Source: a virus. From it: DNA of 34,596 bases. The first letter of the stretch is position 1. Each line of letters begins with the position of its first letter. The notes beneath the pieces are model-generated. The model saw only the letters and a program-made list of their open reading frames with translations. It was not told the origin of the DNA and did not search any database. Position numbers and translations under genes: made by a program. The stretch spans positions 1 to 34,596 of the IMG/VR virus record IMGVR_UViG_3300036863_000032. The stretch is one strand, 5' to 3'. Positions 5,336 through 32,911 of this stretch are shown here, piece by piece.

Positions 5336-5950
5336 ATGAGGACTATCGTCATTGTGGGTCTCGTGGCGTTCGCGGTCGGTGGCGGAGTCGGGTATGCGCA
5401 AGGTCAATACGGATACATGCCGGATTGGTGGGCTGGCTGGTCGGTTGTCTCGGTCGGGCCAAAGATTCCAGGACATCCGTCGTCATTGGGCGGCGTCGTG
5501 GGGCAAGTACAGCATGACGCGATGCCGAACGGTGGGCCGCAAGGTCTCGAGGGCTATGTCTACGACGACCATCAGGCCGGCAGCACGCGCCTCACGTTTG
5601 GGCTCGTGAGCAACGTGGAGCTGGCCGGAGGCGGACAGACGCAGGAGGTCAGGAGCAGTGGCGGCGTTGTCACTGGGCCGGCGCGTGTCTCAAAGTGGGA
5701 CATGAACGGGGGCGCTGTGCACAATGTGAACCCGTCCGCGCAGATTGACGAGTTGTGCGCGCTGTGTCCGCAGTGGTCGGGCAACATCGTCACGAAGCGC
5801 GGGGTGTGGCTCCCAGAGGACACACAGGCCAACAGGCTCCCGGGCGTGACGGATGTCGAGACGCTGCGATTCCCGAACGGCTGGACAATGCGCGCTGTGG
5901 GCGACACATTGGAGATTCGCGACCGGAACGGAGCAGTCCGGCGCTGGTGA
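5336..5950 (+). CDS. Protein with N-terminal membrane/signal segment, unknown function
   Basis: A 204-residue protein preceded by a good ribosome site (GGAGG at about 5322). Residues 3-22 are hydrophobic and Gly-rich after a single Arg, looking like a signal peptide or a single membrane anchor. The remainder is Gly, Trp and Val rich. A DELCALCPQW segment (about 140-149) has two closely spaced Cys residues. It could be a membrane-spanning or ejected virion component, or a host-envelope protein made during infection. I do not recognise the family. The following gene starts 6 bases after its stop. Confidence 0.5.
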   Translation: MRTIVIVGLVAFAVGGGVGYAQGQYGYMPDWWAGWSVVSVGPKIPGHPSSLGGVVGQVQHDAMPNGGPQGLEGYVYDDHQAGSTRLTFGLVSNVELAGGGQTQEVRSSGGVVTGPARVSKWDMNGGAVHNVNPSAQIDELCALCPQWSGNIVTKRGVWLPEDTQANRLPGVTDVETLRFPNGWTMRAVGDTLEIRDRNGAVRRW

Positions 5951-5956
5951 CGAGAC

Positions 5957-6865
5957 ATGGCCGATACCTACGAAGACTTCCTGAACGAGCTCTCCAAGCG
6001 CACTGGGGCCTCTGTCGAGCAGAGCGATGTGGAAGCGTTGCGCGGGAAGAACCCGGAAGATGTCGAGGCCCACAAACGCGCCCTGGAGGCGCAGTACGCG
6101 AGGCGCGGGAGCAATATTCCAGGCAGCGGCGGAGGCTCATCGGGCGGAGGCGGAAGCACTGTGCCGGCTGCGGCCCCTCCGGCGCAGGCCTGGAACCAGT
6201 CAGGCCAGATGTTTCCGGATTGGTATCAAGGCCTAATGCAGCAGCAGCTCGCGCAGCAGCAAGCGGCGCAGGCTGAGAACAAGGCGCGGGCGGATGCGCT
6301 CTATTCCACGCTGAATACGCGCGCCACGCAAGGCCTGCAGGTCAACGCGAATGACCCGATCATCAGAGGCCAGGTCGAGGCGTACGGGGCACAGGGTGAG
6401 CGGGCGCGCCGAAATTACCTCAGCGATCTCGCGGAACGCGCTGGGCCGTTGGCGAACATCCAAGGCGAACGCCGCATGACGGCGGAGCGATTGGGGCAGG
6501 GCACGGGTGCATTCCAGGCGGAGCTCCTCGCGCGCGAGCTCGGGGCCCGGCGCGATGAAATTGCACAAGCACTCGCTGCGCAGGGCGGCATGCTGTCCGG
6601 CGACCAGAATAGAAACCTGCAGGCGCAACTCGCCGCACTCGACCAGGCGACCAGAGAAGCCGGTATCGGGCTGCAGGGACGCGGACAAGATATGCAGTAC
6701 GACCTCGGCAACAAAGGCCTCACTCTTCAGCGCGAGCTCGGGCAGGGCGGGCTTGGCTTGCAGCGACGTGGACAGGATTTGTCACAGGACCAGTTCCTTC
6801 GTGAACTCGCGCTTCGCGAATGGGACCGCGGGCAGTACTGGGATTACAACTATGCGGGGCTGTAG
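5957..6865 (+). CDS. Probable internal virion (ejection-type) protein, Gln/Ala-rich
   Basis: A 302-residue protein. Residues 1-50 are an acidic helical head, residues 50-75 a Gly/Ser/Pro linker, and from about residue 90 onward it is long, Gln-, Ala- and Arg-rich helix with predicted coiled coil. A C-terminal section repeats GLQ(G/R)RGQD and LxLQRELGQ motifs (about 235-280). Such helical low-complexity proteins in a podovirus tail block are usually carried inside the head and ejected with DNA. Three similar proteins follow, reinforcing the inference. There is no recognisable enzyme domain. Confidence 0.5.
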   Translation: MADTYEDFLNELSKRTGASVEQSDVEALRGKNPEDVEAHKRALEAQYARRGSNIPGSGGGSSGGGGSTVPAAAPPAQAWNQSGQMFPDWYQGLMQQQLAQQQAAQAENKARADALYSTLNTRATQGLQVNANDPIIRGQVEAYGAQGERARRNYLSDLAERAGPLANIQGERRMTAERLGQGTGAFQAELLARELGARRDEIAQALAAQGGMLSGDQNRNLQAQLAALDQATREAGIGLQGRGQDMQYDLGNKGLTLQRELGQGGLGLQRRGQDLSQDQFLRELALREWDRGQYWDYNYAGL

Positions 6866-12580: not shown

Positions 12581-13636
12581 CTAGTCAGTCGGGGCGCTTT
12601 TTATTTCCACGCGCTTCCAGCCATTGAACCGCCCGGACAGGCTCTCCGAGAGGGCCTGCATGCGGCTGCCGAGCACGGGCACATAGTGTTTTCGCGTCGT
12701 TTCCCTTCGCTTGTGCCCGAGCGCGGCGCCCACATCATCTAAATCGACCCCGGCCTCGGACAGTGTAATCCCGAACGTGTGCCGAGCCTGGTAGGGTCGG
12801 ACGTCTGCCGGCCAGCCGGCAGTTCTCAGGGTTCGCACGAAGGCTCCTTCGCGGAACGTCCCCCACGCGGCCGCCTCGATGAAGAGTTGCCACGCGGCCA
12901 GCTGATCGTCGTTCAAGTAGAGCCCAGGTGTATAGCCGCCCTTGCCGTCACGTGGCACCCAGACGCGCGCCTCGAGGTCGACGTCGGTCGGTTGGGCTCT
13001 GGCGATCTCAGACGGCCGGCGGCCCGTGCTCACCAGGACGCGGTACCGAGCTCGCGTCTTCGCATTCCGCAGCCAGCCGCGCTGCTCATGCTCTTGCAGT
13101 TTCGCATCGACCGCCAAGATCGTCTCGACGGATACCCGCTGAATCGGCGTGCGAGGAACCGGCAGGTCCGTGATCTCGTCGCAGGGGCTCTCCACGCGCT
13201 TCCCGTCCAACACGCGGAACAGATTCCGCAGCGTCGCGACTCGGTGATTGACCGTCGCGGGCGCGACGCCGGCCTGGAGCCACGCGGTGCGCATCTCGAG
13301 CACATCCGCCTTCGTGATCTGCGATCGTCGCCTGTCGCCCAGCGCACGCACCAAGGCGCGCACCTCTGAGCGCCGCTCGCGCCAGCTCGCGAGGTGCCGC
13401 GTGAGTCGCTCATAGATGACGGCATCGGCGGCCAGCGTACCGCGGCTGGGGGTCGGCCTAGCGGTGTGCATGCGGGCCGCCCAGCGCTCCATGTCCTTGC
13501 GGATCTCTTTCAGCGCCGTGCCGTGCTGGAAGCGCAGCTCCTTCGGCTTGTGGCCGCGCAGGCGCACGATCGCGCCGATCCCAAGGTCGTCTTTGTAGAC
13601 GTTGGTGGCGATGCGGTGCCGGGTGCCTCGGCTCAT
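12581..13636 (-). CDS. int: Tyrosine recombinase (phage integrase)
   Basis: A 351-residue site-specific recombinase of the phage integrase family, which integrates and, with an excisionase, excises the phage DNA. The N-terminal 60 residues look like a small arm-site-binding domain, residues 70-160 a SAM-like core-binding domain, and 170-330 the catalytic domain. Catalytic residues visible are Arg about 206-207 in STGRRPSE, Lys 232 in DGKGG, Arg 285 in YQARHTF (Tyr in place of the common first His), His 308 in GHKRR and nucleophile Tyr 318 in KHYVPV. Length is typical. It lies 21 bases after the repressor stop on the same strand with GGAGA as ribosome site, so both are probably one leftward transcript. 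Confidence 0.9.
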   Translation of the reverse strand: MSRGTRHRIATNVYKDDLGIGAIVRLRGHKPKELRFQHGTALKEIRKDMERWAARMHTARPTPSRGTLAADAVIYERLTRHLASWRERRSEVRALVRALGDRRRSQITKADVLEMRTAWLQAGVAPATVNHRVATLRNLFRVLDGKRVESPCDEITDLPVPRTPIQRVSVETILAVDAKLQEHEQRGWLRNAKTRARYRVLVSTGRRPSEIARAQPTDVDLEARVWVPRDGKGGYTPGLYLNDDQLAAWQLFIEAAAWGTFREGAFVRTLRTAGWPADVRPYQARHTFGITLSEAGVDLDDVGAALGHKRRETTRKHYVPVLGSRMQALSESLSGRFNGWKRVEIKSAPTD

Positions 13637-13657: not shown

Positions 13658-14158
13658 TCAACCAACTTTTCGACGTCGCGCATCCTTCGCGGGTTGAGGA
13701 GCGCGAGCATTTGCATTTTGTTCCCGAGTCGCACGCAGCTCGCCGCCGACCATTCGCACGGCTTCGATGAGTTCATCGAGCGCGGCTGTGTTCCGCGCGA
13801 TGATGGCGTTGGTGTCGTCGAGCGATATGCGCCGAACGGGATTGCTGCTGCCATGGTTGCCGCGCGGGTTCGGTGCGGGAGTGGGCAGTGTCTCAGATAC
13901 GTCGTGCGTCTGCAAGCCCTCGATTCGTGCGAAGAATTGCGAAAGCGTAAGGTCCATCGCGCTCACTAGCGTTTGAATCGTTTCAAGGTCTGGTTTGTGC
14001 GCTGGATACTTTTCAACGCGCTCGATGCGATTCACCGTTGACGGGCTGACGCCTGTTTTCTGATGCAGGATGCGGAGCGTGATCTTGTGCTCCTTCCGCA
14101 CCGCGCGTATTTCCTGCCGGATGCGGCCCCAGTCCATTTGCATACTCGCATAATCCAT
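13658..14158 (-). CDS. Lysogeny repressor, Xre-type HTH
   Basis: A 166-residue protein read leftward and divergent from the Cro-like gene. Residues 10-70 form an Xre/lambda-repressor-type helix-turn-helix, with the recognition helix around TGVSPSTVNRIERV. The C-terminal half is polar and helical without a visible LexA-like Ser-Lys self-cleavage dyad, so induction may not follow the lambda CI route. I chose ATG 14158; ATGs at residues 6 and 8 are alternatives, and none has a strong ribosome site. The neighbouring operator repeats, divergent Cro and downstream integrase support a CI-like role. Confidence 0.75.
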   Translation of the reverse strand: MDYASMQMDWGRIRQEIRAVRKEHKITLRILHQKTGVSPSTVNRIERVEKYPAHKPDLETIQTLVSAMDLTLSQFFARIEGLQTHDVSETLPTPAPNPRGNHGSSNPVRRISLDDTNAIIARNTAALDELIEAVRMVGGELRATREQNANARAPQPAKDARRRKVG

Positions 14159-14192
14159 CTCTTGGTCGCATAGAAGCAACCCGGTCGATAGA

Positions 14193-14212
14193 ATTTGTGT
14201 ATACACGCAAAT
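14193..14212. promoter_or_regulatory. Operator palindrome in the divergent control region
   Basis: ATTTGTGTATACACGCAAAT is a near-perfect palindrome centred on GTGTATACAC, between the repressor and Cro genes. Related half-sites GTTTGCGTGTGT (14227-14238) and GTTTGCACGTAT (14250-14261) follow at roughly 23-34 base spacing. The layout resembles the three-operator region of lambdoid phages. It is the likely binding region for the repressor and Cro proteins. Confidence 0.6.
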
Positions 14213-14218
14213 GAGCAC

Positions 14219-14247
14219 TTGCATTTGTTTGCGTGTGTGGGTAAAGT
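14219..14247 (+). promoter_or_regulatory. Rightward early promoter for the Cro-like gene
   Basis: TTGCAT (14219-14224) and TAAAGT (14242-14247) are separated by exactly 17 bases and match sigma-70 promoter boxes in four of six positions each. The operator half-site GTTTGCGTGTGT lies between the boxes, so a bound repressor would block polymerase. Transcription would start only a few bases before ATG 14260, suggesting a leaderless or nearly leaderless message. Confidence 0.5.
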
Positions 14248-14259
14248 GTGTTTGCACGT

Positions 14260-17303: not shown

Positions 17304-17310
17304 ATGAAGA

Positions 17311-17334: not shown

Positions 17335-17367
17335 ATGAACCCTATTCTTCCACGAGACGAGTCATGA
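17335..17367 (+). CDS. 10-residue leader peptide before recombination gene
   Basis: ATG 17335 lies 10 bases after AAGGAGG and encodes MNPILPRDES before TGA at 17365. This stop overlaps the ATG of the exonuclease-RecT fusion (ATGA at 17364-17367). That geometry suggests the leader is translated and feeds ribosomes to the large gene. Direct proof is lacking. Confidence 0.4.
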   Translation: MNPILPRDES

Positions 17368-18881
17368 GCGAGAAGGAAATCGTTCTCATCGACCTTTCCT
17401 CGCTCGCGTATCCCATCTGGCATGTCTCGCAGTCGGAGCCAGACCCGAACCACACGAGCACGCAAACAGTGGCCCGCGTGCGCGCGATCGCGTCTGGAAA
17501 GCCGGCTGTCGCCATCTGCTGCGACTCCGGCCGCTCGTTCCGGCGTGACATCGACTCCAGCTATAAGGCGAATCGTCCCGCTCAGGACGGGACATTGGCG
17601 CATCAAATCACGCTCGCCTGCGAACAGCTAGCGGCCGATGGGTTTCCAGTCTGGGCTGAGAAGGGCTTCGAGGCAGACGACCTTGTGGCGTCGGCGGTCG
17701 CGCGGGCGCTGTTGCTGCCGGACGCGACGGTGCTCGTCGTCACATCTGACAAAGACCTGCTTCAGCTTGTCGGGCCACGTGTGCAGGCGATGTCCGCTCG
17801 GGACGGCTCAGTGCTAGACGCTGACGGCGTGCTCGCGAAGTTCAGCGTGCGACCGGACCAGATTCGAGACTTCCTCACGTTAGTCGGTGATGCATCCGAC
17901 AACATCAAGGGCGCGTACAAGATTGGCGCGAAGACGGCGGCGACCCTGCTGGCGAAGTACCAGACCATCGAAGGGATCTATGAGGCGCTGCAACAGCGTG
18001 GCACGGAGTTTACTCCGGCCCTCGACACGTCCTTGCGCGAGTTCCTGCCGCGGCTCGTGACGACGCGCGAGCTTGTGACGCTCCGCACCGACGTCCCGTT
18101 GCCCTTCGACGAGATCTTCGCCGTGCGCGTGCCGAAGGATGCCCAAGAGTTCGAACCGTTCGAGCCTGAGGACGAAGGAAGCGACGAGATACCACAGCCG
18201 ACAGCGGAGCGGTCCGGCCCTGAAGCGCCTGATCGTGCTGATGCTGCTAAGGGTGAGGTCACCGACCTGCCGGGGAACGGCGCGGCTGCGCCTGCCGCGT
18301 CATCGGCCTCCCGGCTCAATCTTCCCACCTCAATTGCCGTGCGTGAGCCGGAATTGCTCGCGCCGATCGATTACGAGCGCCAGCTTGATCCGCGGTCTAT
18401 GAAGGATGCGCGGATTCTCGCGAAGGACATGCACGATTCTCGGCTGTTCTCCGCCTATGGGACACCGCAGGGCGTGCTCTCCACGGTGATGCTCGGGCGT
18501 GAACTGGGCTTGCCGGCGATGGCGAGCCTTCGAGGCATTCACGTCATCGAAGGCAAGCATGCGCTGTCGGCTCAGACTATGGTGGCCCTGGTTCTGAAGT
18601 CTGGGCTGGCGGAGTACTTCGAGCCTGTAGAGTTCGATCACCTACATGCCGTCTTCGAGACGAAACGCAAGGGCGCGCGGAAGGAAGTTCGGCTGCAGCA
18701 CACGATCGAGATGGCGCAGACAGCTGGCCTCGTGAAACCAAACAGCAATTGGGTGAAGGTTCCGACTGACATGCTTGTGGCGCGGGCTCAAGCGCGGCTC
18801 TGTCGGCTGGTCTATCCGGATATCGTCGGCGGCCTCTACACGCCTGACGAACTCTCCGAAATCCGCACGGCGGTTGCGTGA
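17364..18881 (+). CDS. 5'-3' exonuclease fused to RecT-like annealing protein
   Basis: A 505-residue protein from ATG 17364. Residues 1-255 look like a complete FEN/PolI-type 5'-3' exonuclease: acidic metal ligands at Asp10, the FEADD cluster (102-106), SDKD (128-131) and GDASDN (175-180), with Arg/Lys-rich SFRRDIDSSYKANR (58-71) and the H2TH DNA-binding segment IGAKTAATLLAKYQ (187-200). Residues 260-330 are an acidic then Ala/Pro-rich linker. Residues 335-500 match RecT-type single-strand annealing proteins, around LGLPAMASLRGIHVIEGKHA and a later NNW-like SNWVKVPTDMLVARA. The first half should resect DNA 5' ends and the second anneal the exposed strand. In most phages these are separate genes. 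The ATG is coupled to a 10-residue leader. No internal stop or frameshift is seen. Confidence 0.85.
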   Translation: MSEKEIVLIDLSSLAYPIWHVSQSEPDPNHTSTQTVARVRAIASGKPAVAICCDSGRSFRRDIDSSYKANRPAQDGTLAHQITLACEQLAADGFPVWAEKGFEADDLVASAVARALLLPDATVLVVTSDKDLLQLVGPRVQAMSARDGSVLDADGVLAKFSVRPDQIRDFLTLVGDASDNIKGAYKIGAKTAATLLAKYQTIEGIYEALQQRGTEFTPALDTSLREFLPRLVTTRELVTLRTDVPLPFDEIFAVRVPKDAQEFEPFEPEDEGSDEIPQPTAERSGPEAPDRADAAKGEVTDLPGNGAAAPAASSASRLNLPTSIAVREPELLAPIDYERQLDPRSMKDARILAKDMHDSRLFSAYGTPQGVLSTVMLGRELGLPAMASLRGIHVIEGKHALSAQTMVALVLKSGLAEYFEPVEFDHLHAVFETKRKGARKEVRLQHTIEMAQTAGLVKPNSNWVKVPTDMLVARAQARLCRLVYPDIVGGLYTPDELSEIRTAVA

Positions 18882-19372
18882 TGTCAGCCACCGAAGAAAC
18901 ACTCCGCCTGCTTCGTTCTATTGATGGGACGCTCAAAACGTTGCTGGCGCTGTCGCAGCGGCGCACGCCGCCGGCGCCGAAGGAGATCGCCTCAGATCGT
19001 GAGTTAGACAGCCAGTACGGCGATCCAATCGTCAAACTGGTTCCGCGCGACTGGGCTGGCGACTCCTTTAAGGGCGCGCGCATGTCGCAATGCCCGCCGG
19101 AATACCTCGACCTGTTGGCCGAGATGTTCGATTACTTCGCGGACAAGGCTGAGCGGAACAACGAGCAGACAACCAAAGGGAAGCCTAAGGCGCCCTATAA
19201 CCGGAAAGATGCTGCTCGAGCCCGAGGATGGGCGGCGCGCGCACGGAATGGCCACCGGGCGGCGATGACGCAGGCCAAACCGCCCAGCGAGACGGACGAA
19301 TGGGACAGTGATTCGATTGAAGGCCCCGATCCGTGGAAGGTCACGGCAGATCAAATCTTCGGGAGGCGATGA
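18881..19372 (+). CDS. Conserved-type phage protein beside RecT, unknown function
   Basis: A 163-residue protein from ATG 18881, overlapping the previous stop (TGATG). The N-terminus is a short helix, then Pro-rich spacer; residues 60-125 have a pattern I associate with small phage proteins next to recombination genes: CPPEYLDLLAEMFDYFADKA, then a basic NRKDAARARGWAARA segment. The end is acidic, as in some single-strand-binding partners, but no OB-fold is evident. Involvement in recombination or replication is inferred from coupling to the exonuclease-RecT gene. Confidence 0.5.
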   Translation: MSATEETLRLLRSIDGTLKTLLALSQRRTPPAPKEIASDRELDSQYGDPIVKLVPRDWAGDSFKGARMSQCPPEYLDLLAEMFDYFADKAERNNEQTTKGKPKAPYNRKDAARARGWAARARNGHRAAMTQAKPPSETDEWDSDSIEGPDPWKVTADQIFGRR

Positions 19373-20934: not shown

Positions 20935-21120
20935 ATGAAGGGACGAATAGGTACTTCGGCGCAGATGGTCAATGCGGAAGGCGCCGGCTGCACATTCAAA
21001 CGAGACAAACTCGCGCGCCGACAAGACAAAATACGTCGCGCGGTCAAGGGCCTGGACAGAGCGGCTCGTAAGGCTGCCAGCGCATTCAACCCTGCCCCGC
21101 GACTGCGAGGCCGGCCGTGA
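20935..21120 (+). CDS. Small basic protein, unknown function
   Basis: A 61-residue strongly basic protein from ATG 20935, nine bases after GAGGG (GTG 20929 is an alternative but too close). It is Arg/Lys-rich from residue 20 on, ending in GRP, suggesting nucleic-acid binding. Its stop overlaps the next GTG (GTGA). The low-complexity composition makes family assignment impossible. Confidence 0.4.
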   Translation: MKGRIGTSAQMVNAEGAGCTFKRDKLARRQDKIRRAVKGLDRAARKAASAFNPAPRLRGRP

Positions 21121-21443
21121 GTGGCGGAAACAGTAACGGCAACGGCAATGGATACGCTGATTTCAGCCTGTTTTGGGCGCGGTATCCGAGGCGGGTTGCG
21201 AAGCAGGATGCGCTGAAGGCGTGGCTTAAACTGAAGCCATCGCCTGAGTTGCTGAGCAAAATATTGGACGCTCTCGATTGGCAATGCGAATTATGGACTG
21301 ACCCGGAGTACATCCCCTATCCGGCGTCGTGGCTCCGGGGTCACCGCTGGGACGACGAGCCAGTGCAGGCCAAGCCCATGCTCAGCAAGAAGACGCTCGT
21401 CACGCTCTCGGCCGCAGCGGGCATCATGCGTGAGAAGCCATGA
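21117..21443 (+). CDS. Replication organiser-like small protein
   Basis: A 108-residue protein from GTG 21117. After a Gly/Asn-rich start, residues 13-75 match the helical C-terminal segment common in phage replication initiators and replisome organisers: FSLFWARYPRRVAKQDALKA, then WLKLKPSPELLSKILDAL and YIPYPASWLRGHRWDDE. In larger phage replication proteins this motif follows a winged-helix domain, which is absent here, so it may be a reduced form or the partner of another protein. Coupled by ATGA overlap to the next gene, a possible helicase-loader-like partner. Confidence 0.6.
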   Translation: MSGGNSNGNGNGYADFSLFWARYPRRVAKQDALKAWLKLKPSPELLSKILDALDWQCELWTDPEYIPYPASWLRGHRWDDEPVQAKPMLSKKTLVTLSAAAGIMREKP

Positions 21444-22059: not shown

Positions 22060-22307
22060 AATCAACGTGCGGTTGGCGGCGACGCTGTGTGTGCGGAAAA
22101 TTGTTTACCGATAAGCACGGCGACCAGTGGCAGTGTGTCACCTGTCGTCCGAAATTATCGCGCGAGGTTGCGCCCCCGCTGCCGGACGAGGAACGCTGGC
22201 GCCGGTGGTTGCTGGCGCAGCTCGAGCCGTACCTTGGGCTGACCGTGAACGTCAACGATTTGATTCTCCACTTGCGGGAACAAGCGAGCAAAGGAAAAGC
22301 GGCGTGA
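22056..22307 (+). CDS. 83-residue zinc-ribbon protein
   Basis: Begins at ATG 22056 after GAGAAGG. The N-terminal region has CGWRRRCVCGK (residues 5-15) and CVTC (27-30), providing four or five Cys for a zinc ribbon. The remainder is helical with an amphipathic C-terminal segment. Located among replication and recombination genes; it could be a DNA-binding accessory. It overlaps the start of RusA. Confidence 0.55.
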   Translation: MKSTCGWRRRCVCGKLFTDKHGDQWQCVTCRPKLSREVAPPLPDEERWRRWLLAQLEPYLGLTVNVNDLILHLREQASKGKAA

Positions 22308-22753
22308 AGCTGGAGTTCGTCGTCCTCGGTATCGCCAGGCCGAAGGGCAGCACGCGCGCCATCATGCGCAAAGGCATGAAGTACCCGGTCGTGACGTCTG
22401 ATAACAGGAGCGTGAAGGGCTGGGAAGAATCCGTCCGTGCGGCCATTCAACAGCGCGCAGCTGGCGTGTATTTCACTGGGCCGGTCTCTGTTCGCATCGC
22501 GTTCTACTTGCCGCGTCCGAAGTCGCTGCCGAAGCGCGTTCAGGATCACACGAAGAAGCCGGACATCGACAAGCTCGCGCGCGGGTCTCTCGATGCGATG
22601 AAGGGCGTGCTCTGGAATGACGACGCACAGGTGATCGAGCTCCATGTGACGAAGCAGTACTGCCACGAGCAGCCACAGGCGGCTATTGAAGTGTTCGGCA
22701 TTGAGGCGACTAGGAACAATGGCCCTGCATCTATTCTCCATCACGCTCTTTGA
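22304..22753 (+). CDS. rusA: RusA-type Holliday-junction resolvase
   Basis: A 149-residue protein beginning at GTG 22304, after AAAGGA. RusA-family features are the early VLGIARPKGSTRA strand-turn, a central RIAFYLPRPKSLPKR strand, and the signature KPDIDKLARGSLDAMKGVLWN, written here in part: KPDIDKL (about 83-89) followed by DAMKGVLW and NDDAQV. The Asp residues in the KPDxD and DD motifs are expected metal ligands. RusA resolves four-way junctions made by phage recombination and helps tidy DNA before packaging. Length is close to the usual 120-150 residues. Confidence 0.85.
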   Translation: MKLEFVVLGIARPKGSTRAIMRKGMKYPVVTSDNRSVKGWEESVRAAIQQRAAGVYFTGPVSVRIAFYLPRPKSLPKRVQDHTKKPDIDKLARGSLDAMKGVLWNDDAQVIELHVTKQYCHEQPQAAIEVFGIEATRNNGPASILHHAL

Positions 22754-22934: not shown

Positions 22935-23669
22935 GTGACGCCGTATTACGAGCAAGGCGGGATTGTCATTTACCACGGAGACTGCCGAGACATCCTCCCA
23001 CAGCTCGGGCCGGTGGACCATGTGATTACAGACCCGCCGTATGAGGCGGAAGCGCATTCGCTGGGCCGCCGGGCATTCAGCGGCAAGTCTAGCGCCGCGC
23101 ACCCTAAAGGGATTGCTGAGGAGCGCCCGCTGGACTTTGCCGCCATCAGCGATGACGACCGAAAGCTGGCCGGCAAGCTCATGGCCAATGTGTCGCGCGG
23201 ATGGGTTCTGGTGTTCTGCCAAGTTGAGGCAGCGATGCTCTGGCGGGATGCGCTCAAGCCCGCGAAGTACATCCGGACACAGATTTGGCGCAAGCCAGAC
23301 GGGGCGCCGCAGTTCACCGGGGACCGCCCAGGCATGGGCTACGAAAGTATCGTGTCGTGCTGGGCTGGGAATGGTCGCACGTGGTGGCACGGAGGTGGGC
23401 GGCACGGCGTGTATGAGCACATGACCGTGAAAGCTGCCAGCCATCAGACGCAGAAGCCAGAGCAGTTGATGTGCGATCTGGTGTCTCTGTTCAGTAATGC
23501 CGGCGAAACCATCCTCGATCCCTTCATGGGCAGCGGCACCACGTTAGTAGCAGCGAAGCGGTTAGGCCGGAAAGCCATCGGCATCGAGTCGGAAGAGAAG
23601 TATTGCGAGATCGCCGCTCGCAGGCTGAGCCAGGGCGCGCTGAATCTGTTTGCGGAGGTGTCGGCATGA
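22935..23669 (+). CDS. DNA N-methyltransferase (amino-group type)
   Basis: A 244-residue enzyme beginning at GTG 22935 with TGAGGAGG upstream. Catalytic motif DPPY is at residues 33-36 and the SAM-binding DPFMGSGTT at 195-203; the DPPY-before-FxGxG order fits beta-class adenine-N6 or cytosine-N4 methyltransferases. HQTQKPEQLM (170-179) is the usual substrate-loop region. It may protect phage DNA from host restriction or mark it for regulation. The recognition site cannot be inferred. No cognate restriction enzyme gene is visible, so it appears solitary. Confidence 0.85.
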   Translation: MTPYYEQGGIVIYHGDCRDILPQLGPVDHVITDPPYEAEAHSLGRRAFSGKSSAAHPKGIAEERPLDFAAISDDDRKLAGKLMANVSRGWVLVFCQVEAAMLWRDALKPAKYIRTQIWRKPDGAPQFTGDRPGMGYESIVSCWAGNGRTWWHGGGRHGVYEHMTVKAASHQTQKPEQLMCDLVSLFSNAGETILDPFMGSGTTLVAAKRLGRKAIGIESEEKYCEIAARRLSQGALNLFAEVSA

Positions 23670-27673: not shown

Positions 27674-27901
27674 ATGGCAATACACATCGCTGATATCGTA
27701 GCCAAGGCGTGGGCGACCGCGATCCGCGACACGCCTGCGGCTGATTGGTCTGAGTTTTTGGGGCCGCGCAGGACGTATCGCGAGAGATTAGACATGGCGC
27801 GGCGCAACATCTACGGCGATGTGATCCCGCGCATCGTGCTGGTCCGACGGAACCTGAGCCTGCTTGGCAAGCCACGGCGGGCGCCGAGGCTTCCGGAGTG
27901 A
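27674..27901 (+). CDS. 75-residue protein before TerL, unknown function
   Basis: Chosen start is ATG 27674; an in-frame ATG at 27617 is possible but would use the inverted repeat as coding sequence. It is basic and helical, with residues such as AIRDTPAADWSEFLG and an Arg-rich end. The stop overlaps the TerL GTG. No recognised family. Confidence 0.45.
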   Translation: MAIHIADIVAKAWATAIRDTPAADWSEFLGPRRTYRERLDMARRNIYGDVIPRIVLVRRNLSLLGKPRRAPRLPE

Positions 27902-29397
27902 GTACGCCGAGCCCCTATGCCTTTACGGTTGGGGACGAGGTCTTTTTCGACCCGCATCCTGGGAAGCAGGTGGAGGTGCTGCACGTCCTGAAGGAGCGCG
28001 TGTTGGGGACGGGGCCGGCGCCGGCGAACGTGTTTTTGTGGGGCAACCGTGGGAGCGGCAAGAGTCGGCTAGTGCGAGCGTTTCTGCATGCGTGTGCGGT
28101 GGCGATACCTGGGTTTCGGTATGTGCTGGTGCGGCGGAACATGCCGGATTTGCGGAAGAACCATGTGATTTACGTCGGGCCGGAGATGCGATTATTGGGG
28201 GGCGAGTTCAATCAGACGTATGGGCAGGCGAGTTACGCGAACGGGTCGATTGGCTTTTATGCGCAGTGCGAGGATGAGCAGGACGCGGAAAAGATTGTCG
28301 GGGCGGAGGCGGCGGTAATTTTCGTGGATGAGGCGCCGCAGATCAAGTGGGACCTGTTGCGGTTGTTGGCGCCGTCGGTGCGGGTGGCGAAGACAGCGGA
28401 CGGGCGGCAGCCGTATCGGACGTTGATGGTGTATGGGGGGAATCCGGTCGGGGAGTCGATTGAGGAGTTGTGGGCGTACTTTATTGATCAGACGGTGGAT
28501 CGGGAGACGGATCCGGAATACGACCCGGCGGATTTTCTGGCGATGGAGATTCGGCGAGAGGACAACCCGTCTCTGGATGAGGCGGAATATCGGAAGCAGT
28601 TTGCTGGGTTGCCGGCGCACTACCGGAAGGCGTGGCTGGACGGGGTGCGGATGGATTCGCGCAGTCTCTTCGAGGTCCAGAAGACGAAAGACGGGAAGCC
28701 GTATCACTACATTCAGGAGTTGCCGTCGGTCGGAGGCGTGCCGCTGCTCCGCGTGCCATGGATTCAGATTTACCGGGCTTTTGATATGGGCTATTTCCCT
28801 GATCCGGCGGTCGGGGTGTGGTTTGCCGTGCTCGGGCGGCGCATTATGGCCTTTCATGAGGGCACGTGGTTCCGTACGGTTGCGAAAGATTTGGCGACCA
28901 CGATGATCGAGACGACGAAGGAACTCACGTCACGCCAAGACGCCTCCGGGGAGTGGGTATCGCTGCCGGTCTCGATGACCTACGTGGACCCGCAGATTAA
29001 TGTCCGGACAGGGTCGGATACGGTCACGGTGATGGATGTGCTCGAGATGAACGGGGTGCCGTGTGAAGCGTCGATTAACGATAGGGTTCTGTACGCTGAC
29101 GCGATCCACGGGCTTTTGGGGGAAGAGGTGGAGCCTGGCGTACCACGATTCCAGGTGTATGAGCCGGGCTGCCCAATGCTGGCGAAATACCTCCCCAAGA
29201 TGCGCTGGGATGAAAAGAACCCCCGCAAGATGGCGGACCATAAATTTGACCACTGGATTGTCTGTTTAGCCTACTTTGCGATTTCCAGCGGGGTCTTGAG
29301 TTCGACTCGGGCAGAATCCGAGGTGAAACGGCCGGCGTGGATGGACTGGATCGAGGAGGGGCGCGGACAACGCCGCGTCGGGAGGAGAGTCAGGTAA
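27898..29397 (+). CDS. terL: Terminase large subunit
   Basis: A 499-residue packaging motor protein from GTG 27898. The ATPase domain has Walker A GNRGSGKS (49-56), Walker B VIFVDEA (140-146) and a likely coupling motif around YGGNP (179-183). The C-terminal RNase-H-like nuclease has acidic residues at Asp296 (AFDMGYF), Asp364 (TYVDPQI) and Asp447/Asp451 (DHKFDHW). It should pump and cut DNA at the portal. Length is standard. The first two thirds favour codons ending in G (CGG, GGG, GTG, TTG) more than neighbouring genes. Confidence 0.9.
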   Translation: MSTPSPYAFTVGDEVFFDPHPGKQVEVLHVLKERVLGTGPAPANVFLWGNRGSGKSRLVRAFLHACAVAIPGFRYVLVRRNMPDLRKNHVIYVGPEMRLLGGEFNQTYGQASYANGSIGFYAQCEDEQDAEKIVGAEAAVIFVDEAPQIKWDLLRLLAPSVRVAKTADGRQPYRTLMVYGGNPVGESIEELWAYFIDQTVDRETDPEYDPADFLAMEIRREDNPSLDEAEYRKQFAGLPAHYRKAWLDGVRMDSRSLFEVQKTKDGKPYHYIQELPSVGGVPLLRVPWIQIYRAFDMGYFPDPAVGVWFAVLGRRIMAFHEGTWFRTVAKDLATTMIETTKELTSRQDASGEWVSLPVSMTYVDPQINVRTGSDTVTVMDVLEMNGVPCEASINDRVLYADAIHGLLGEEVEPGVPRFQVYEPGCPMLAKYLPKMRWDEKNPRKMADHKFDHWIVCLAYFAISSGVLSSTRAESEVKRPAWMDWIEEGRGQRRVGRRVR

Positions 29398-31487: not shown

Positions 31488-32435
31488 ATGGCAGTTCCCT
31501 TCACACAGCTCGTGGCCTCCACCTACGATGCGGTGGTCAACGAGCGCAACAAGGCGGCGGACCAGTGGTCCGATACCTCCGCCCTCAACTTCCTCGAAGA
31601 AATCGGCGGCATCAAGCGTGTCACGCCTGGCGCCACACTTCAGATGACCTTGGATTACCGCCAGAACTCGGGCGGTGATTTCCTCGCAACCGACACCACC
31701 GCGACCGCCACATCAAAAACGGACGTTCTCACGGCGACAGGTCCGAGTTGGGCGACGCTGGTGGTACCCACCAATTGGAGCTTCACCGACGAAGCCCTAA
31801 ACGACGGGGACAAGAAAATCGATCTGATCGCGGCGCTCGTGGATAACACGATCACGACGCACGATTTCATGATCGAAGCGGGCATGTTCGCGGCCACCGG
31901 CGGCACAGACGGTTTCGCAACGTTTGTCGATCTGTTCTCGGAAGATGGCCTCGGCACGGTCCAGGGCATCGTGGCGTCAACCGAGACGTGGTGGAAGAAC
32001 CAGTTCAAGGACTGGGGCGCCGATACGGGCGCGACACTCTTGGCGGACTACAACACCCTGTACTTCTCGTGCGCGAAGGGGTCAAGCGGCCGGCAGCCGA
32101 ACGTGGTCATCGCGAACTCGACGCTGTATGGGGCATTCATCGCGGCACTCACTCCGCAGCAACGGTTTATGAACGCCGCCTCAGCGACGTCTGGATTCGG
32201 CCAAGTGAAGCTGATCAACGCGAGCTATATCTATAGCTCAGTCATCACGACCGCGCAGGACTCGGCGTGGATGTTCAACACCAACGATACGGCGCTCTTC
32301 GTCGCGAAAACCGCGTGGCGGAAGCGTCGGGCGCCGATGGATTTCTCCTCGGCGGCGATGGTTAACCAAAAAGTTTTTTCAGTCTTGCAGTTAGCCACTC
32401 GTAACCGTAGCCGTGGCGGGGTGCTGTTCACGTGA
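31488..32435 (+). CDS. Major capsid protein, HK97-fold type
   Basis: A 315-residue protein behind GAGAGGG. Typical features are an acidic N-terminal arm, FLEEIGGIKRVTPGATLQ, beta-rich middle, a long helix around KIDLIAALVDNTITT and a region with TWWKNQFKDWG, followed by a peripheral domain and a basic end. This resembles a family of phage major capsid proteins annotated near TerL and scaffold genes. It forms the icosahedral shell. The position after scaffold, the best promoter, and the likely decoration protein two genes later strongly support the call. Confidence 0.8.
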   Translation: MAVPFTQLVASTYDAVVNERNKAADQWSDTSALNFLEEIGGIKRVTPGATLQMTLDYRQNSGGDFLATDTTATATSKTDVLTATGPSWATLVVPTNWSFTDEALNDGDKKIDLIAALVDNTITTHDFMIEAGMFAATGGTDGFATFVDLFSEDGLGTVQGIVASTETWWKNQFKDWGADTGATLLADYNTLYFSCAKGSSGRQPNVVIANSTLYGAFIAALTPQQRFMNAASATSGFGQVKLINASYIYSSVITTAQDSAWMFNTNDTALFVAKTAWRKRRAPMDFSSAAMVNQKVFSVLQLATRNRSRGGVLFT

Positions 32436-32911
32436 TGTCGAAGATCTGTCGCATCTGCCAGCAGGAGAAGCCTCTGGGCGCTTTTTACCAGCAGCGCAGC
32501 TGTAAGGACGAGCGGCGCCCAGAGTGCCGAGCCTGTTTCAATACGGCGCGACGTGAATATCGGAATGCGGACTTGGCGCATCACCAAGCCGCCGCGCGTC
32601 GCCGGTATCACGTCAATCCTGGCAAATCACGCGCTGACCGAAAGGCGCAGTATCACAAGGACCGCGAGTGGGGAGCCCTGCGCGCACAGCTTGGCAAGTA
32701 CGGCCTCACGCTGGACCAGTTTCATGCGCTGCAGGAGCGGCAGGACTTCTCTTGTGCGATTTGCGGCGATGTTGCCGAATTGCAGATCGATCATTCCCAT
32801 ACCACGAAGCGCGTGCGCGGCTTGCTGTGCGCGGGATGCAATCTCGGTATCGGCCATTTTGGTGAGCGCGCCTCGGCGCTCGCAGCTGCGGCGCGCTACG
32901 TTGCCGCGTGA
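32435..32911 (+). CDS. Endonuclease VII-like resolvase or homing nuclease
   Basis: A 158-residue protein from ATG 32435, overlapping the capsid stop (TGATG). The N-terminus has CRICQQEK and CRACF, a zinc-binding pair. The C-terminus carries the endonuclease VII signature: YGLTLDQFHALQERQ, CAICG, LQIDHSHTTKRVRGLLC and CNLGIGHF. His, Asp and Cys residues here form the metal and catalytic site of His-Me finger nucleases that cut branched DNA. In T4 such an enzyme clears DNA junctions before packaging. Insertion between the capsid and decoration-like genes also suits a mobile nuclease. Confidence 0.8.
   Translation: MSKICRICQQEKPLGAFYQQRSCKDERRPECRACFNTARREYRNADLAHHQAAARRRYHVNPGKSRADRKAQYHKDREWGALRAQLGKYGLTLDQFHALQERQDFSCAICGDVAELQIDHSHTTKRVRGLLCAGCNLGIGHFGERASALAAAARYVAA

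Follow-up and report, generated by a model that had tools for sequence, protein, structure and literature searches.

A FEN-type 5' nuclease and a RecT-like annealing core joined in one predicted protein in a family of phage contigs

The window analyzed here, by which we mean the whole of a 34,596-base IMG/VR virus record, contains a gene whose single product is predicted to combine a FEN/Pol I-type 5' nuclease with the annealing core of a RecT/Red-beta protein. The phage looks temperate, based on its integrase and repressor-like gene. The features are listed below by their coordinates in the window, except where another contig is named.

12581-13636, minus strand: integrase
13658-14257, minus strand: repressor-like gene
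17364-18881, plus strand: FEN-RecT fusion gene, 505 aa, assigned from the open frame, the Pfam and PHROG domains and 48 other contigs sharing the architecture
17379-17843, plus strand: N-terminal PIN-like domain of the FEN part, residues 6-160 (PF02739, 5_3_exonuc_N, E=5.8e-26)
17847-18110, plus strand: C-terminal helix-3-turn-helix/SAM domain of the FEN part, residues 162-249 (PF01367, 5_3_exonuc, E=1.4e-22)
18135-18368, plus strand: predicted disordered linker, acidic and then Pro/Ala-rich, approximately residues 258-335, assigned from low pLDDT and the spread of lengths in the family
18168-18191, plus strand: Shine-Dalgarno (SD)-like stretch GAGGACGAAGGAAG with ATA after it, in the position where many relatives have an SD-like sequence and an in-frame ATG
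18369-18863, plus strand: RecT/Red-beta annealing core, residues 336-500, assigned from PF03837, phrog_561/4171, the alignment with free RecTs and Foldseek match 7ujl_A
18881-19372, plus strand: partner gene for a 163-aa helical protein, its ATG overlapping the fusion stop (TGATG)
L100:11435-11917 and L130:11533-12006, among others: relatives of the partner gene
21117-21443: primosomal/replication-initiation-like gene in the early region
22127-22753: RusA-like resolvase in the early region
22935-23669: probable DNA methyltransferase (best member E 1e-46)
27898-29397: large terminase

The frame of the fusion gene runs on the plus strand through 505 codons without interruption to a TGA stop, and its coordinates are exact. 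The next in-frame ATG upstream is at 17304; the sequences of the relatives (MKDNELLLIDLSS..., MAREIVLIDLSS...) support the start at 17364. An earlier note on this DNA had described such an uninterrupted gene and had proposed a search for the same domain order in other phages. We verified the frame, and alignment-based scans of IMG/VR found the same order in 48 further contigs, giving 49 distinct fusion sequences with that of the window. Forty-eight of these are complete; in the remaining one (L146) the N-terminus is cut off by the contig end. A scan with the single protein returned no relatives, and alignments were required to find the fusions: one built on the RecT half led to a single locus (L006), alignments built on that locus led to more, and duplicates were removed.

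The unbroken order in the 48 other contigs, which derive from many metagenomes, rules out a chance joined frame, a missed stop or a misassembly, and we give practically no credence to the idea that an assembly or sequencing error fused two genes. That errors or decay do happen is evident from an additional contig, L156 (9764-11609), in which the FEN and RecT halves are in overlapping frames, as if an indel had hit a former fusion. We considered whether this pair represents the unfused ancestral state and rejected that idea because the frames overlap as they would after a frame shift.

Residues 1-257 constitute a complete Pol I/FEN-type 5' nuclease in which all nine carboxylates are present, seven in the N-terminal domain (D10, D54, E103, D105, D106, D129, and D131) and two in the SAM domain (D176 and D179). 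The N-terminal domain also has the arch residues R60, Y67, K68, and R71. Conservation of these positions is absolute: D10, D54, E103, D105, D106 and the four arch residues do not vary among the 48 members that include these positions, and D129, D131, D176, and D179 are the same in 49 of 49. In addition to the two Pfam domains, this half matches the PHROGs exonuclease family phrog_107 (1.3e-30). An AlphaFold2 model of the fusion, based on an 11-row family alignment, has a mean pLDDT of 77, with most of the FEN part above 88. The FEN model superimposes on E. coli ExoIX with a Z of 27.8 (2.0 Å across 242 residues), and its Z values are 24-28 for ExoIX and T5 FEN and about 20-22 for Pol I; the VIA-align list of structural matches is taken up by the FEN domain and speaks to that part alone. 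With both domains and the carboxylates of the two-metal site present, we assign this half to the FEN/Pol I-type class and predict a 5' flap or 5'-3' exonuclease activity. In a minor correction to the earlier note, the segment that it called H2TH corresponds to PF01367, which in FEN enzymes is a helix-3-turn-helix region with a SAM fold and not an H2TH of the MutM type.

The C-terminal half matches SSAP profiles. Pfam RecT (PF03837) matches residues 429-502 with E=2e-5, its 24.7 bits being just above the cut-off of 24, and the RecT-like PHROGs phrog_561 and phrog_4171 match with values of 4.8e-20 (residues 375-500) and 2e-19 (residues 345-500), respectively. This half is also colinear with the free RecTs of Salinibacter, Gordonia and Glutamicibacter phages across the whole core, at 30-32% identity, and R481 is invariant in 49 of 49 fusions. 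The RecT part is modeled with pLDDT values of about 68-93, and Foldseek matches it to lambda Red-beta (7ujl_A) with a probability of 1.00, but an E of 2.9e-3 and a TMt of 0.59. The presence of an annealing-core profile and a Red-beta/Rad52-like fold places this half in the RecT/Red-beta class; oligomerization as a ring or helix and strand annealing are predicted for it. Profiles, free-RecT alignment and predicted structure uphold both domain calls of the earlier note, a FEN-type nuclease followed by a RecT-like domain.

The fusion chain stops directly after the RecT core. Its tail is 1-17 aa in the 49 fusions versus 46-286 aa in 65 free RecTs, a comparison whose rows share kinship so that a p-value overstates their independence. 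The fusions lack the C-terminal extension of RecT, the counterpart of the C-terminal domain (CTD) of Red-beta. The Red-beta CTD is the binding site for lambda Exo and SSB (PMC8303780). Red-beta lacking its C-terminal part still anneals, but its recombination in E. coli is abolished, and recombination of dsDNA requires a partner-specific contact in which the Redα and RecE partners are not interchangeable (PMC5052646). A core without a CTD may therefore need another contact.

Between the two halves is a linker with pLDDT below 50 across residues 260-340, which varies from 35 to 148 aa in the family. In 31 of 43 non-redundant fusions, an in-frame ATG occurs no more than about 30 codons past the FEN domain. 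The median SD energy of these linker ATGs (-5.9) is nearer to that of true starts (-7.2) than to the value for ATGs elsewhere inside the gene (-2.5; p = 1e-8), and Met after an SD-like sequence is enriched in the linker region (OR 2.7, p = 0.001) and not within the FEN body (OR 0.7); these statistics come from rows that share ancestry and from a region picked after inspection. These values fit relatives in which the gene yields both the complete fusion and, through internal initiation, a free RecT, which would allow mixed filaments, or alternatively sites that are relics of an old operon junction. However, synonymous-codon shuffles yield equally many SD+ATG sites, since Glu and Asp codons generate SD-like sequence, and the copy in the window has ATA at the site. 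We therefore do not regard an internal start as a strong signal; it is retained as a weak idea because the Met placement is still enriched. The linker sites may be operon-junction relics, active internal starts or chance, and we consider the two-product or relic reading unlikely. The site in the window, which has no start codon, is suggestive of a possible relic.

The overlap of the ATG at 18881 with the fusion stop suggests that translation of the fusion and the downstream gene is coupled. At least 27 fusion loci carry a relative of this partner gene, in most cases directly downstream but in some loci as far as about 2 kb away; the most divergent fusions are without it. The free-RecT and FEN/Pol I loci yielded no copy. 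The partner protein has no match in Pfam, PHROGs or the phage records. Its AlphaFold2 model (mean pLDDT 87.5) is helical with a floppy tail and has no significant match among solved structures in the PDB, a result that does not establish a new fold. By a simple pattern search, 13 of the 27 partner relatives have an SSB-like acidic tip (DDDIPF, DSEIPF, DDEIPF, or DDIPF) at their C-terminal end; the window's protein ends DPWKVTADQIFGRR, without such a tip. At L006 (contig IMGVR_UViG_3300046737_000067), a frame at 5817-6407 between the fusion and the partner gene was called by eye as a DEDD/DnaQ-like 3'-5' exonuclease (MLVTIDTETAGL...).

The first eleven sequences aligned share 46-61% of their residues with the window protein, and more distant members 28-37% (tblastn rows). 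In four pairs, with each domain considered on its own, dN is 0.04-0.40 and dS 0.44-1.29, and purifying selection acts on both the FEN and the RecT domains. The RecT-core tree places the fusions apart from the free RecTs with one change of state and weak branch support. In the FEN tree, which has three changes of fusion state, one of them involving the frame-shifted L156, the fusions, L156 and one long-branched row are grouped with an SH-aLRT of 92. The two trees are compatible with a single fusion event, without proving it.

No place in the phage records covered 80% of the fusion protein, and megablast of the first 12 kb of the window against the same records gave no match. A first scan of cellular genome contigs found no fusion relative; in a second, the matches listed were to the nuclease half only, apparently Pol I, with no fusion among them, so that cellular genomes may still contain fusions. 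The RecT-core profile detected free RecTs in five genomes, with neither FEN nor partner gene, among 297 genomes from the phylum of an Acidobacteria MAG and 369 from the class of a Steroidobacteraceae MAG. The best match in a viral protein library was UniProt A0A6J5MUB0 from an uncultured Caudovirales phage (462 aa, 40% identity, 498 columns, E = 5e-46). It evidently has the same architecture, although its name, "PIN_53EXO domain containing protein," covers the nuclease half only. We found no account of a FEN-RecT architecture in the open-licence PubMed Central papers searched, and to that extent the novelty inferred in the earlier note still stands.

The contigs that carry the fusion differ from those with free RecTs in the YqaJ exonuclease (PF09588). 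A search of 36 distinct fusion contigs, the window included and some of them incomplete, detected no YqaJ, while the control genomes matched as expected. In contrast, it was detected in 11 of 16 free-RecT contigs (Fisher p = 7e-5 for two sets of 16). As only 11 of those 16 have a recognized YqaJ, its absence alone is not unusual. The DUF3799 exonuclease (PF12684) was likewise not detected in 17 fusion contigs, some incomplete, with the controls again matching; the search for further exonuclease families was less thorough. Among 17 fusion contigs, including the window, there was no SSB gene, and each had one RecT match and no second RecT. Given the absence of YqaJ, DUF3799, SSB and a second RecT, the fusion seems to take the place of the customary exonuclease and SSAP.

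Several other observations concern the surrounding genes. Relatives of the methyltransferase occur near the fusion in 17 loci, and N6_N4_Mtase is among the most frequent Pfam matches, with hits among the neighbors of seven fusions. One window protein, by its sequence probably that encoded at 32432-32911, matches endonuclease VII (8.8e-31); together with the RusA-like protein, the phage would then have two junction-resolving enzymes.

The reading that we favor, which we hold to be somewhat better than evenly probable, is that of a single-chain phage recombinase in which resection and strand annealing or loading are performed by one protein. At an end, gap or nick in the DNA, the FEN nuclease would digest the 5' strand, and the RecT core, as expected from its family, would coat the exposed 3' single strand and anneal it to its complement. 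The flexible linker of about 80 residues would tether core to nuclease and so couple the two steps. As RecT/Red-beta proteins act as multi-subunit rings or helices, every subunit would bear its own nuclease in a fixed 1:1 ratio. The covalent linkage would do the job of the contact between the Red-beta CTD and lambda Exo, which fits both the lost RecT extension and the absence of YqaJ in the fusion phages. Finally, the product of the coupled downstream gene may serve as the SSB-side partner of the fusion, the weakest step of this explanation. Supporting a single-chain recombinase are the intact FEN site, the confident FEN fold, the full-length RecT-core homology and an architecture conserved under purifying selection, along with the lack of YqaJ, DUF3799, SSB and a second RecT, the short tails and the RusA-like resolvase in the early region. 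Against it are the RecT Pfam score, which is barely above the cut-off, the recombination defect of C-terminally truncated Red-beta and the flap preference of the nuclease class: Pol I-type FEN enzymes prefer 5' flaps and are not known to resect processively in the manner of the trimeric lambda Exo.

In the main rival explanation, possible but in our judgment less than probable, the RecT core anneals a strand at a replication-fork gap or broken end and the FEN part then cuts the 5' flap in place of host Pol I, with resection performed by a host nuclease or not needed. In its favor, the nuclease belongs with the structure-specific Pol I/FEN/ExoIX enzymes and its arch residues are invariant. Red recombination of dsDNA in E. 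coli draws in part on Pol I and falls to 0.16 of wild type without the Pol I 5'-3' exonuclease domain and to 0.04 with the two domains split; however, the same polA mutations hardly changed oligonucleotide recombination (PMC3686724). An early model of Red also resolves joints via a 5'-3' exonuclease or the flap endonuclease of Pol I (PMC7496540). Trimming after annealing leaves the fusion contigs, which lack YqaJ as well, still in need of a resection enzyme for dsDNA ends.

A replication enzyme, in which the FEN part removes primers or matures Okazaki fragments, the RecT core is mainly a tether to ssDNA and recombination is secondary, is in our estimation very improbable. Primer removal is performed by FEN and Pol I-type 5' nucleases in many systems, and the primosomal/replication-initiation-like gene in the early region would suit such a role. 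However, the RecT core is still a recognizable SSAP core under purifying selection, a RusA-like resolvase is in the early region and an SSB gene was not found in the window.

As a single-chain recombinase, the fusion would have counterparts among known systems. Like lambda Exo/Red-beta and RecE/RecT (SynExo), it has a 5'-3' nuclease and a RecT/Red-beta annealing protein as a unit, with one SSAP per phage. Unlike them, it is one polypeptide, in a single frame in 49 sequences, its nuclease has a FEN/PIN fold instead of PD-(D/E)XK, and it is without the CTD that makes the partner and SSB contacts in Red-beta. We infer that it works like a SynExo recombinase and yet is no member of that group as defined, the separate genes, a PD-(D/E)XK nuclease in the phage and the CTD of the SSAP all being absent. 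T7 gp6 exonuclease and gp2.5 also pair a FEN-class 5' nuclease with an annealing/SSB protein; however, the T7 genes are separate, and gp2.5, an SSB, has an OB fold instead of that of RecT/Red-beta. The nuclease fold and active-site carboxylates are those of the Pol I N-terminal domain, E. coli ExoIX (Xni) and the T5 D15 FEN, but in Pol I the nuclease is joined to a polymerase and in ExoIX and T5 it stands alone, whereas here it is joined to an annealing core. Known phage recombination systems split nuclease and annealing between proteins; the fusion unites both.

How the trimeric λExo and ring-forming Redβ cooperate at their observed 1:1 ratio has been named as an open question (PMC7496540). 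A naturally occurring fusion whose nuclease has an unrelated fold would fix the ratio and provide a single-gene system for testing coupled resection and annealing. Such a protein might also serve as a compact enzyme for recombineering, independent of a matched exonuclease partner, the need for which is a known limit on moving Red/RecET between hosts. More broadly, and as a doubtful proposal, the 49 sequences may represent a widespread and undescribed phage lineage in which a one-chain enzyme with another nuclease fold replaces the two-protein recombinase, the partner-binding domain of the SSAP has been dropped and, in one large subclade, a coupled small protein with an SSB-like tail has been acquired; some members may add free RecT from an internal start, through which the phage could adjust how many subunits bear a nuclease relative to plain ones. 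The fusion itself shows that phage recombinases can exchange their nuclease fold and lose the C-terminal domain of the SSAP together.
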